This document shows positions 1,928 to 4,603 of a stretch of 5,557 nucleotides of DNA, one piece after another. The stretch is from the NCBI GenBank assembly GCA_030628225.1, contig DAOVRJ010000171.1:1-5557 (forward strand). The letters are read 5' to 3'. The notes below the pieces were generated by a model. That model ran no database searches and was not told the origin of the DNA. It saw only the letters and a program-made list of their open reading frames with translations. Positions within the stretch are counted from its first letter, which is position 1. Every line of letters starts with the position of its first letter. A program made the translations under genes and the position numbers. This DNA comes from Candidatus Zixiibacteriota bacterium. Lineage in GTDB: Bacteria > SM23-81.

Positions 1928-3235
1928 TCAGATGGGCAAAAACAGACTGAAGGTCGTGCCCTCATTCTTATGGCTGTGCACCTGAATCCTTCCCCGGTGA
2001 TCCTCAACGATCTTGGCCACCATGGCCAGACCCAAACCACTGCCTTTCTCTTTGGTGGTGAAAAAAGGCTGGAAGATCTTGGCCAGGTGAGAGCTGGGAA
2101 TGCCTATCCCGGTGTCGGCCAGGTCGAGGCGCACCCATTTTTTTTGCTGGCTCAAAGTAATGCGGATCTCCCCACCCTGAGGCATGGCCTGAGCTGCGTT
2201 CAGCAACAGATTCAGCAATACCTGTTTGATGCGAGAAACATCCAGCCGGACAAGGGGCAGGTGAGCAGCCGGGGAGATCTGCACCTGGACTCCCTTGTCG
2301 GTCAACTCTCGCTGAGCCATGGCCAGGGTCTCGCTGAGGAGAGCGGCTAGATCTGCCGGAGCTAAACGAGGTGGATCCACACGGGCGAAATCCAGATATC
2401 TGGAGACGATCTCGTCCAGACGATCCACTTCCTCGGGGAGAAAACCCAGCAGCTCCTTGTCGGCCTCCGGCATCGAAGAAGAGGCCTTCAGTCGTTCCAC
2501 GGCGCCGCGGATGATGCTCAAGGGGTTCCTGATCTCGTGAGCCATGTGGGCGGCCATGCGGCCCAGGTTGGCCAGGGCGTCGGCCCGAAGGACCGCCATT
2601 TCCGTTTGCGCCAGGGAATAGCTTAACTTCAGAAACAGAAGCCCCACAACCACCAGAAACAGAAGGCTGATCCCCCCCAGGATCAACATGGTTTTCTTGA
2701 AATTATCCAGAACCTGGAAGTAACCCGCCGAAGCCTCCACCCCAAGAACCGCTATCACCTCTCCCTGATCATCTCTGGCCGGGGCATAACCGCTCTTTAG
2801 AAAGTAGCCGTCCACTGAATAGAGCTGGGATGCGCTGGGCACACCAGAGGAGGCCAGGGTTACCGCTGCCTGATCCAGGGCCAGGGCAGGATCTTCTGCC
2901 CCATACTGGAAGAGATTACTGGTGCTGGCCAGGTTCATTCCATCCAGGTTAAAGAGAGTAACCGTTTCCAGATCGTTGTCCTTTTGGATCTGTTCCAAAT
3001 AATCCGTCAGCAGGAACTGAGCGCCCGGGTCCCCTGCAGATTCCACCAGGTCCGGACTCAACTGGAGAGCCGCCGTCACGGCGATAGCCTGTAGCTTCTG
3101 GCCCAGCTGCTGATCAAGATAGGGAGATGCCCAGCTATAGAGCAACCAGCCCCCAGCGTTGAAAAGCAGTATGACAGCCAGTAAAAAGATGGCCAGCAGA
3201 ATCAACTGACGGCCCCGAAATCTCATTCGGAACAT
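1928..3235 (-). CDS. Membrane-bound sensor histidine kinase (NtrB/AtoS/ZraS-like)
   Basis: With the ATG at 3235 the protein has 435 residues. A basic N-terminus precedes TM1 (about 10-33). An extracytoplasmic sensor of roughly 145 residues (38-182) contains a FNLDGMNLAST segment like those of Cache/PDC sensors, and TM2 spans about 183-202. The HisKA domain carries the H-box HEIRNPL with phospho-acceptor His233. The HATPase_c domain has the N-box around Asn346, G1 DTGIGI at 374-379, F-box FQPFF at 388-392 and G2 GSGLGL at 398-403. There is no obvious HAMP domain and no cytoplasmic PAS domain; TM2 leads directly through a short helix into HisKA. The kinase should autophosphorylate at His233 and pass phosphate to Asp52 of the regulator encoded 22 bases downstream. 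A GTG at 3247 would add four residues but lacks a ribosome binding site, whereas the ATG at 3235 has GGGAG 5 bases upstream. The sensed signal is unknown. Confidence 0.93.
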   Translation of the reverse strand: MFRMRFRGRQLILLAIFLLAVILLFNAGGWLLYSWASPYLDQQLGQKLQAIAVTAALQLSPDLVESAGDPGAQFLLTDYLEQIQKDNDLETVTLFNLDGMNLASTSNLFQYGAEDPALALDQAAVTLASSGVPSASQLYSVDGYFLKSGYAPARDDQGEVIAVLGVEASAGYFQVLDNFKKTMLILGGISLLFLVVVGLLFLKLSYSLAQTEMAVLRADALANLGRMAAHMAHEIRNPLSIIRGAVERLKASSSMPEADKELLGFLPEEVDRLDEIVSRYLDFARVDPPRLAPADLAALLSETLAMAQRELTDKGVQVQISPAAHLPLVRLDVSRIKQVLLNLLLNAAQAMPQGGEIRITLSQQKKWVRLDLADTGIGIPSSHLAKIFQPFFTTKEKGSGLGLAMVAKIVEDHRGRIQVHSHKNEGTTFSLFLPI

Positions 3236-3287
3236 GGTGACTCCCACGGAAAAATCTGCAAAAACCCTCTTTCTTTTTTTCGATCAC

Positions 3288-3316
3288 AATGTAGTAAATC
3301 CACATAACTTTGTCAA
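3288..3316 (-). promoter_or_regulatory. Housekeeping (sigma-70 type) promoter of the kinase-regulator operon
   Basis: On the minus strand a perfect -35 box TTGACA (3311-3316) is separated by 17 bases from a -10 box TACATT (3288-3293, four of six consensus bases). Transcription would start near 3281, about 46 bases before the kinase ATG. No GG-N10-GC sigma-54 motif was found on this strand between 3248 and 3420, so the operon looks constitutively or sigma-70 expressed rather than driven by its own regulator. Confidence 0.65.
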
Positions 3317-3369
3317 CAACTTACCACTCTCCCGGCAGGAGAAGTGGAACGGAAATCCTTAAAAAGTGC

Positions 3370-3398
3370 TTGCATTTTGTCGAAGACTTCTGTAAATT
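3370..3398 (+). promoter_or_regulatory. Weak candidate promoter directly before the inverted-repeat unit
   Basis: TTGCAT (3370-3375) and TAAATT (3393-3398) are separated by exactly 17 bases, with three of six and four of six consensus matches. Transcription would begin near 3405, at the left arm of the inverted repeat. Placement is suggestive, but motif quality is low. Confidence 0.25.
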
Positions 3399-3425
3399 TT
3401 AGAAGGAGAGAGGACTCTGCATTTG

Positions 3426-3436
3426 AAAACCGTTTT
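3426..3436. repeat. Short palindrome AAAAC-C-GTTTT
   Basis: A perfect 5-bp dyad with a one-base centre inside the left half of the inverted-repeat unit. The related dyad at 3555-3568 sits at the mirror position in the right half. They may be operator-like sites, or just part of the long-range pairing. Confidence 0.35.
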
Positions 3437-3554
3437 ACAACGCACTAATGAAGGTAGCCCCCCAATGTTGAGACTATTCGCCGTGACCCCTTCGGGGTAG
3501 CGATGACAAAAGACTGCGGGCGGTCGTAAATCCTTTACCGTGTCGTCTGAGATG

Positions 3555-3568
3555 TGTTTTTCAAAACA
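3555..3568. repeat. Short palindrome TGTTTT-TC-AAAACA
   Basis: A perfect 6-bp dyad with a two-base centre inside the right half of the inverted-repeat unit, sharing the AAAAC/GTTTT core with the dyad at 3426-3436. Its function is unknown. Confidence 0.35.
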
Positions 3569-3619
3569 GGAGTCCTCTTTCCTTTTGCCCCTTTCTCTCC
3601 ATCCTCATCTCTCTCCTAA

Positions 3620-3703: not shown

Positions 3704-4603
3704 GTGAGCGCCTTAACATTGAGGCAGGTGTCCAAGCGTTTCGCGCATGTCATCGCCGTTGATTCCCTCTCCTTTCAGGTGGAACAAGGATGGATGTACG
3801 GTCTTTTGGGGCCCAACGGGGCCGGCAAGACCACCACCATCCGCATGATCTTGAACATCATCCGTCCTGACCGGGGGCAGATCTCTCTGTGGGGTGGAGT
3901 GGGACGAACGCTCACCAATCGGGTGGGCTACCTGCCAGAAGAACGGGGCTTGTACCGCAAAATGAAGGTCCTCGACCTGTTGGTCTTTTTGGCAGCTATA
4001 AAGGGAATTGGAGCCAAACAGGCGCAGGCTGACTCCCTCCACTGGCTGGAGAAATTTGAACTGGAAGCATGGGCACAGAGGAAAACCGAGGAGCTTTCTA
4101 AGGGCATGCAGCAGCAGGTGCAGTTCATCGCCTGTGCGTTGCATCGGCCTGATTTAATCATCCTGGACGAGCCCTTTGCCGGCCTGGACCCTCTGAACAC
4201 CAACCGGCTCAAAGATATCATCCTGGAGCTGAACAACAAGGGCACCACGGTCATCCTGTCCACCCACCGAATGGAGCAGGTGGAGAAACTGTGCAGCCAC
4301 ATCTGTCTGATCAACCAGGGGAAAAAAGTGCTGGACGGCCGCCTCAACGAGATAAAAAGGGAATATGGCCATAACACCATCCGGCTGGAGTTCGACGGTC
4401 CCAAAACATTTCTGGAGAACAGTCCCCTGATCGACAAAATGGACCTTTACGGCCACTATGCGGAGCTGCACCTCAAACCCTTCGCCGATCCTCAGGAGCT
4501 GCTCCGGGCCGCTGTCAAAACAATCCGCCTGCGCAAGTTCGAGATCGTCGAGCCCAGCCTCAATGACATCTTCATCGAAAAGGTGAAATCCGAGAATGGG
4601 TAA
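3704..4603 (+). CDS. ABC transporter ATP-binding protein, NatA/YhaQ type
   Basis: This 299-residue ATPase should power an inner-membrane exporter with the permease encoded next. Visible motifs are Walker A GPNGAGKTT at 36-44, the signature LSKGMQ at 130-135, Walker B LIILDE at 150-155 with catalytic Glu155, the D-loop GLDP at 159-162 and the H-loop His187. The Q-loop region reads GYLPEERGLY (75-84) with Glu where many ABC proteins have Gln, which is usual for this subfamily. Residues after about 210 form the C-terminal extension of DUF4162-type ATPases. The start is GTG at 3704, with GGAG about 8 bases upstream. The last 8 bases overlap the permease gene, so the two are translationally coupled. 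Relatives include sodium exporter NatA and YhaQ. The substrate cannot be read from the sequence, and sodium, drug or lipid-like compounds are all possible. Confidence 0.93.
   Translation: MSALTLRQVSKRFAHVIAVDSLSFQVEQGWMYGLLGPNGAGKTTTIRMILNIIRPDRGQISLWGGVGRTLTNRVGYLPEERGLYRKMKVLDLLVFLAAIKGIGAKQAQADSLHWLEKFELEAWAQRKTEELSKGMQQQVQFIACALHRPDLIILDEPFAGLDPLNTNRLKDIILELNNKGTTVILSTHRMEQVEKLCSHICLINQGKKVLDGRLNEIKREYGHNTIRLEFDGPKTFLENSPLIDKMDLYGHYAELHLKPFADPQELLRAAVKTIRLRKFEIVEPSLNDIFIEKVKSENG

Follow-up and report, generated by a model that had tools for sequence, protein, structure and literature searches.

A structured non-coding RNA family from little-studied bacteria as a candidate divergent 6S RNA or 6S substitute

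The locus and its folded unit

The window, i.e., the whole 5,557-nucleotide stretch of Candidatus Zixiibacteriota DNA that was analysed, includes a 456-base intergenic region flanked on one side by a divergent two-component operon and on the other by the operon of an ABC-2 type transporter (Table 1). Positions 3401-3586 of this region fold, according to RNAfold, with a minimum free energy of -70.9 kcal/mol (z = -5.33), a stability equalled by none of 200 dinucleotide shuffles, which bears out the claim of an earlier, sequence-only reading of this DNA that pairing of such extent exceeds chance. The fully pairable 17-bp ends described in that reading are present as a helix of 3402-3418 with 3569-3585 (G-U pairs allowed), and the imperfect pairing that it reported further inward takes the form of an interrupted rod reaching up to an apical hairpin. 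The longest terminal helix in the window measures 19 bp, versus a random mean of 6.9.

The only close relative, Zixibacteria bacterium SM23_81 (L032, which is the sequence of L003, genome G001), carries the unit at the same place, and this orthologous unit has a fold z of -5.27. Identity between the two amounts to 88% over 3401-3586 and 83% over 3360-3400, as against 48-50% in the flanking non-coding DNA and ~74% for the whole window versus the SM23_81 genome, the conserved block being delimited by a promoter-like element at one end and by the closing helix at the other. A compensatory change is seen at pair 3414-3573, where the window has A-U and SM23_81 has G-C, while the outermost four pairs (3402-3405 with 3582-3585) are broken in SM23_81, so that the evolutionarily supported closing helix comprises ~3406-3417 and 3570-3581. 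The extent originally proposed for the unit thus holds in that 3401-3586 folds as one rod, but its outer four pairs are not kept in the relative and the conserved promoter block (~3361-3398) also belongs to it. The terminal inverted repeat is best read as the closing stem of one RNA rather than as a DNA repeat.

The promoter block is retained in SM23_81 amid an otherwise unconserved flank and is alike in a third homologue, L114 (see below); from its position, an RNA start would be expected near 3404-3406. In 19 of the 20 homologous loci a CTTG motif, followed by a TATACT-like element, is located 46-62 nt upstream of the core (CTTG background 9.6%). A scan for E. coli-type consensus promoters returned no significant match at most loci, whereas the conserved CTTG element is significant.

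Table 1. Coordinates of genes and RNA features, numbered from the first base of the window
Feature	Position	Strand	Basis or remark
Sigma-54-type response regulator	565-1905	minus	two-component operon
Histidine kinase	1928-3247	minus	two-component operon
Putative promoter: -35-like CTTGCAT (TTGCAT 3370-3375), 17-nt spacer, -10-like TAAATT (3393-3398)	3369-3398	plus	conserved in SM23_81 and L114
Non-coding RNA unit	3401-3586 (supported RNA ~3404-3586)	plus	fold z; identity versus flanks; homologues found with R1, R2 and R3
Closing helix P1, 5' strand	3406-3417	plus	pairs with 3570-3581; RNAfold; compensatory pair 3414-3573
Helix P2, 5' strand	3425-3435	plus	adjoins bubble; A-U/G-C and U-A/C-G covariation in A9
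Central bubble, 5' side, UACAACGCACUAA	3436-3448	plus	opens with [A/U]ACA like canonical 6S
Helix P3, 5' strand, UGAAGG	3449-3454	plus	97.5% of cells paired; A-U to G-C in 6 of 20
Helix P4, 5' strand, GCC-C-CCC	3457-3463	plus	persistent 1x1 pyrimidine mismatch; 95% of cells paired; four pairs changed on both sides
Apical domain	3467-3514	plus	alignments; shortened in L121, L123 and L125
P5	3467-3469/3512-3514	plus	within apical domain
P6	3478-3481/3500-3503 and 3486-3490/3494-3498	plus	with CGUGA internal loop
Helix P4, 3' strand	3518-3524	plus	A9; pattern GCC-N-CCC/GGG-N-GGC
Helix P3, 3' strand, CCUUUA	3532-3537	plus	A9
Central bubble, 3' side	3538-3549	plus	unpaired in covariation-supported structure; possible refolding hairpin
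Helix P2, 3' strand	3550-3562	plus	A9; alternative pairing with bubble in several homologues
Closing helix P1, 3' strand	3570-3581	plus	fold; helix kept with new sequence elsewhere
ABC ATPase	3704-4603	plus	ABC-2 type transporter operon
ABC permease	from 4596	plus	ABC-2 type transporter operon

Homologues and covariation

Homologues were sought with three successive covariance models, designated R1 (built from two sequences, those of the window unit and SM23_81), R2 (three sequences) and R3 (twelve sequences, core only), in a survey of 386 genomes and two smaller sets. R1 returned the third homologue, L114, in a genome of another family of the same phylum (G002) with an E-value of 1.4e-18, which is rough, as are all covariance E-values here, owing to a short calibration. 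The closing helix of L114 has a wholly different sequence in which complementarity is nonetheless kept. Subsequent use of R2 and then R3 showed 13 of the 386 surveyed genomes, representing nine families, to be positive, with R3 scores of 72-130 bits and one copy per positive genome. R3 also matched Candidatus Latescibacterota CSMAG_2404 at 101 bits, and the RNA is present in eight of 64 Latescibacterota genomes. The total thus stands at ~20 homologues of constant architecture in at least nine bacterial families, Latescibacterota included.

No match was found in G003, which belongs to the genus of G002 and is 90% complete, and R3 was likewise without a match in 38 other named genomes (Acidobacteria, Krumholzibacteriota, Gemmatimonadetes, Chlorobi and others). 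A locus termed L126 reached 23.9 bits with R2 and was lost with R3, and it was treated as a chance match. DNA-level searches beyond the family returned only short chance matches, while no match to the unit was obtained in plasmids (BLAST) or in viral contigs (exact-pattern scan). The plus strand was assigned to the RNA from score and promoter position; R1 and R2 also scored the reverse strand, at 28-30 bits, as is expected since the rod is self-complementary.

Covariation was assessed in A9, an alignment of 20 sequences, eight of which had not been used for R3; the alignment was fitted to the model and is biased towards it. In it, 90.4% of cells pair. Both-side changes occur in 68 cells of this alignment versus 24 +/- 5 in shuffles, and its covariation score is 0.380, compared to 0.213 +/- 0.014 for shuffles and 0.11-0.14 when partners are slid. 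A second, MAFFT-made alignment (A8) agrees, with a score of 0.339 versus 0.191 +/- 0.018. Furthermore, beyond the modelled core all homologues but L123 possess a closing helix, 9-19 bp long, the complementarity of which yields a Fisher p of ~1e-17 over partly related sequences. The suspicion of RNA-level selection, initially based on G-U replacements, is therefore upheld by abundant compensatory changes over ~20 homologues and by a closing helix that is resequenced yet complementary between lineages.

In the apical domain, the loop strands GUUGAG and GACAAAA and the CGUGA loop are strongly conserved in most members. Three short forms of the RNA, L121, L123 and L125 (148-169 nt, two families), which are located directly downstream of a convergent recA gene, lack most of the apical domain, indicating that this domain is dispensable.

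Comparison with 6S RNA and other known RNAs

The Rfam covariance-model search that had been suggested as a check was performed on the window unit, the SM23_81 unit and eleven homologous units. None of the 4,227 Rfam families (Rfam 15) was matched above chance or at its gathering cut-off, even in narrow permissive scans; permissive matches to MIR2670 (18 bits), SAM-II (18 bits) and Twister-sister (21 bits) represent chance only. Moreover, no description of the ~185-nt RNA was found in the open-licence literature.

6S RNA is regarded as being present in the vast majority of bacteria, where it restrains RNA polymerase. It is a rod of ~200 nt composed of a closing stem, a central bubble and an apical stem, sequence similarity among its members is so low that they can be united only by covariance models, and two refolding modes have been described for its release (PMC8876501). 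The new RNA likewise forms a rod of ~185 nt with a closing stem, a bubble of similar size and an apical arm, and possesses a strong promoter of its own and one gene per genome. The 6S layout is supported in the new RNA by covariation, the bubble measuring 13 by ~12 nt and the apical arm ~89 nt, and it matches that of canonical 6S sequences from the same survey. AACA begins the 5' bubble strand of most canonical 6S RNAs, and 15 of the 20 homologues have [A/U]ACA at this junction, five lacking it; the formal p of 4e-8 over 11 representatives, which are not independent by descent, overstates the case, as the motif may have arisen once. The 3' bubble and the freed P2 strand can form a strong hairpin in five homologues, and the 5' bubble can pair with that strand in three others, the two hairpin types corresponding to the two refolding modes of 6S; the predicted refolding is strong in eight of 20 homologues, and weak or absent in the rest, including the window.

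The distribution of the two RNAs points in the same direction. Rfam 6S was found in 209 of the 386 genomes and in none of the 13 carriers (hypergeometric p = 3.1e-5 by genome, ~9e-4 by family), so that the new RNA would be the sole 6S-type RNA of each carrier genome. Absence is here defined as no RF00013 match at E <= 0.01, which applies to 177 of the 386 genomes, and in the carriers it may come from an Rfam model that detects 6S poorly in these phyla. If those phyla do have a 6S RNA that is invisible to Rfam, the new RNA would be the best candidate for it. The 177 genomes also imply that further unrecognised 6S-type RNAs may exist. Most of these 177 genomes are also devoid of the new RNA.

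Formal membership of RF00013 (gathering cut-off 46.4 bits) is not claimed, because there is no covariance score in either direction: searches with RF00013 at E <= 10 came up empty for the window unit, for its SM23_81 counterpart, for eleven homologous units and for the four genomes of the window's phylum, and R3 returned only noise on 19 canonical 6S loci. The loose resemblance to 6S-type RNAs pointed out in the sequence-only reading is hence substantiated as regards architecture and the lack of Rfam 6S in all carriers, but not as regards a formal RF00013 match. Differences from 6S comprise P3 (UGAAGG/CCUUUA), P4 and the apical loop motifs, which are specific to the new family, and apical loops that are more conserved than would be expected for 6S.

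Four Latescibacterota loci (L180-L183) exhibit weak RF00013 matches of 23-34 bits, below the cut-off, and share with the new RNA a phylum common to some carriers, a bubble-bearing rod and an upstream promoter of the TTGCAT type; they differ from it in being weakly recognised by RF00013 and not by R3. None of the four genomes concerned carries the new RNA, and 52 of the 64 Latescibacterota genomes have neither, so that this phylum alone is uninformative on mutual exclusion. L181, L182 and L183 are nearly identical 6S candidates (23-26 bits) near a tRNA gene with anticodon CAU, and look like under-recognised 6S RNAs. Of note, RF04354 (Plastid-ycf2 5UTR) matches, with 44 bits, the strand opposite to tRNA genes at L181:1350-1424, L182:1752-1826 and L183:653-727, from which this Rfam family seems to contain a tRNA.

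A precedent for a 6S-like RNA is Ms1 of Actinobacteria, which, according to two reports (PMC4191392, PMC9130861), has a 6S-related structure and binds RNA polymerase in organisms where 6S has seldom or never been detected. Ms1, however, is an actinobacterial RNA and associates with core polymerase that lacks the primary sigma factor; the new RNA was matched by no Rfam family.

Proposed function and alternatives

That these sequences constitute a new structured RNA family is a defensible claim, with a 6S-type function being the most likely interpretation and an unrelated RNA class its main rival. Based on the rod architecture, on hairpins that may form upon refolding and on the lack of Rfam 6S in all 13 carriers, we assign a probability of roughly 0.55 to the interpretation that the unit is a gene with its own promoter for a trans-acting RNA, which would bind RNA polymerase either as a highly divergent 6S RNA or as a functional stand-in for 6S. 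We infer transcription, polymerase binding, product-RNA synthesis and release as follows. The promoter would direct synthesis of a trans-acting RNA of ~185 nt, whose rod (the P1-P2 closing helix, the bubble and the P3-P6 apical arm) would imitate an open promoter, such that the housekeeping RNA polymerase holoenzyme would bind it and be held back. The enzyme may then copy the 5' side of the bubble and the 5' strand of P2 into a short product RNA, whose first nucleotide would probably be a G templated by the C of the [A/U]AC motif. Synthesis of this product would unwind P2, upon which the 3' strand of P2 could refold with the bubble and the RNA would be released.

A plausible though less favoured alternative is a new structured RNA class unrelated to 6S, for instance the RNA of an unrecognised ribonucleoprotein bound via the apical domain. 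The lack of an Rfam family match, the R3 result on canonical 6S and the strongly conserved apical motifs agree with such a class, whereas the bubble architecture, the length, the motif that opens the bubble, the refolding and the exclusion of 6S exceed what an arbitrary RNA would be expected to display, and the short forms without most of the apical domain also argue against it. A shade more tentative is the proposal of an RNA class of independent origin, recognised via P3-P4 and the apical motifs, that replaced 6S in several deep lineages or does another job.

Very little probability is attached to a cis-acting leader (riboswitch or attenuator) that would control the ABC transporter operon beginning at 3704. 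In the window as in SM23_81, the unit does precede the ABC ATPase gene on the same strand, at a distance of 118 bases, and no terminator was detected in the intervening sequence. However, the constant type of downstream gene expected of such a leader is not seen across the homologues, the neighbours of which vary by lineage and were in part recognised by eye: an HlyD-type protein and ketol-acid reductoisomerase (KARI) are encoded beside L114, pyrF beside L128 and L173, a ksgA-like gene beside L175, and the convergent recA beside the short forms. In addition, an intrinsic terminator follows several copies, e.g., L118, L121, L122, L123, L128 and L173. The varying neighbours, the dedicated promoter element and the terminators together render both an ABC-operon leader and a mobile element unlikely.

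Even less credit is given to a divergent SRP RNA, tmRNA or RNase P RNA, even though a housekeeping RNA would typically show the same single copy, own promoter and wide conservation. Of 21 genomes searched, 15 have an SRP RNA above the cut-off at another place, among them those of the window and SM23_81 (G000 and G001); in the former it is located at G000:C14:721-821 (RF00169), with no SRP match at the RNA locus itself; ARAGORN detected no tmRNA in the window. Furthermore, RNase P RNA is usually about twice as long as the ~185-nt unit, which is without RNase P core motifs; both points count against that identity. An old MITE or other non-autonomous mobile element, earlier considered because of the terminal inverted repeats, is of negligible probability, given that the suggested search of the unit's own genome (2.34 Mb, 306 contigs) returned a single copy rather than dispersed ones, and given the one copy per genome elsewhere, terminal arms that differ by lineage, the conserved promoter, helices that covary across relatives and the lack of a plasmid match.

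The single genomic copy, the promoter, the constant architecture amid varied neighbours, the covariation and the absence from Rfam argue that 3401-3586 is a free-standing non-coding RNA gene and not a MITE. Judging from the genomes surveyed, this RNA, which is unlisted in Rfam, is common to many little-studied bacteria and has so far been encountered only in genomes without a detected ordinary 6S. RF00013 finds no 6S in nearly half of the surveyed genomes, and a family filling this gap in several lineages would show whether 6S was lost, replaced or just not recognised in them. As a candidate 6S-type RNA, it would also provide a second, sequence-distinct RNA scaffold on which imitation of an open promoter could be examined with clear predictions for polymerase binding, while its covariance model would permit annotation of a hitherto invisible and probably abundant RNA in uncultured phyla.

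On the minus strand, a sigma-70-like promoter at 3288-3316 (TTGACA-17-TACATT, matching at 10 of 12 positions) faces the two-component operon and probably drives the kinase-regulator genes divergently from the RNA gene; its plus-strand TTGTCAA is also found in SM23_81.
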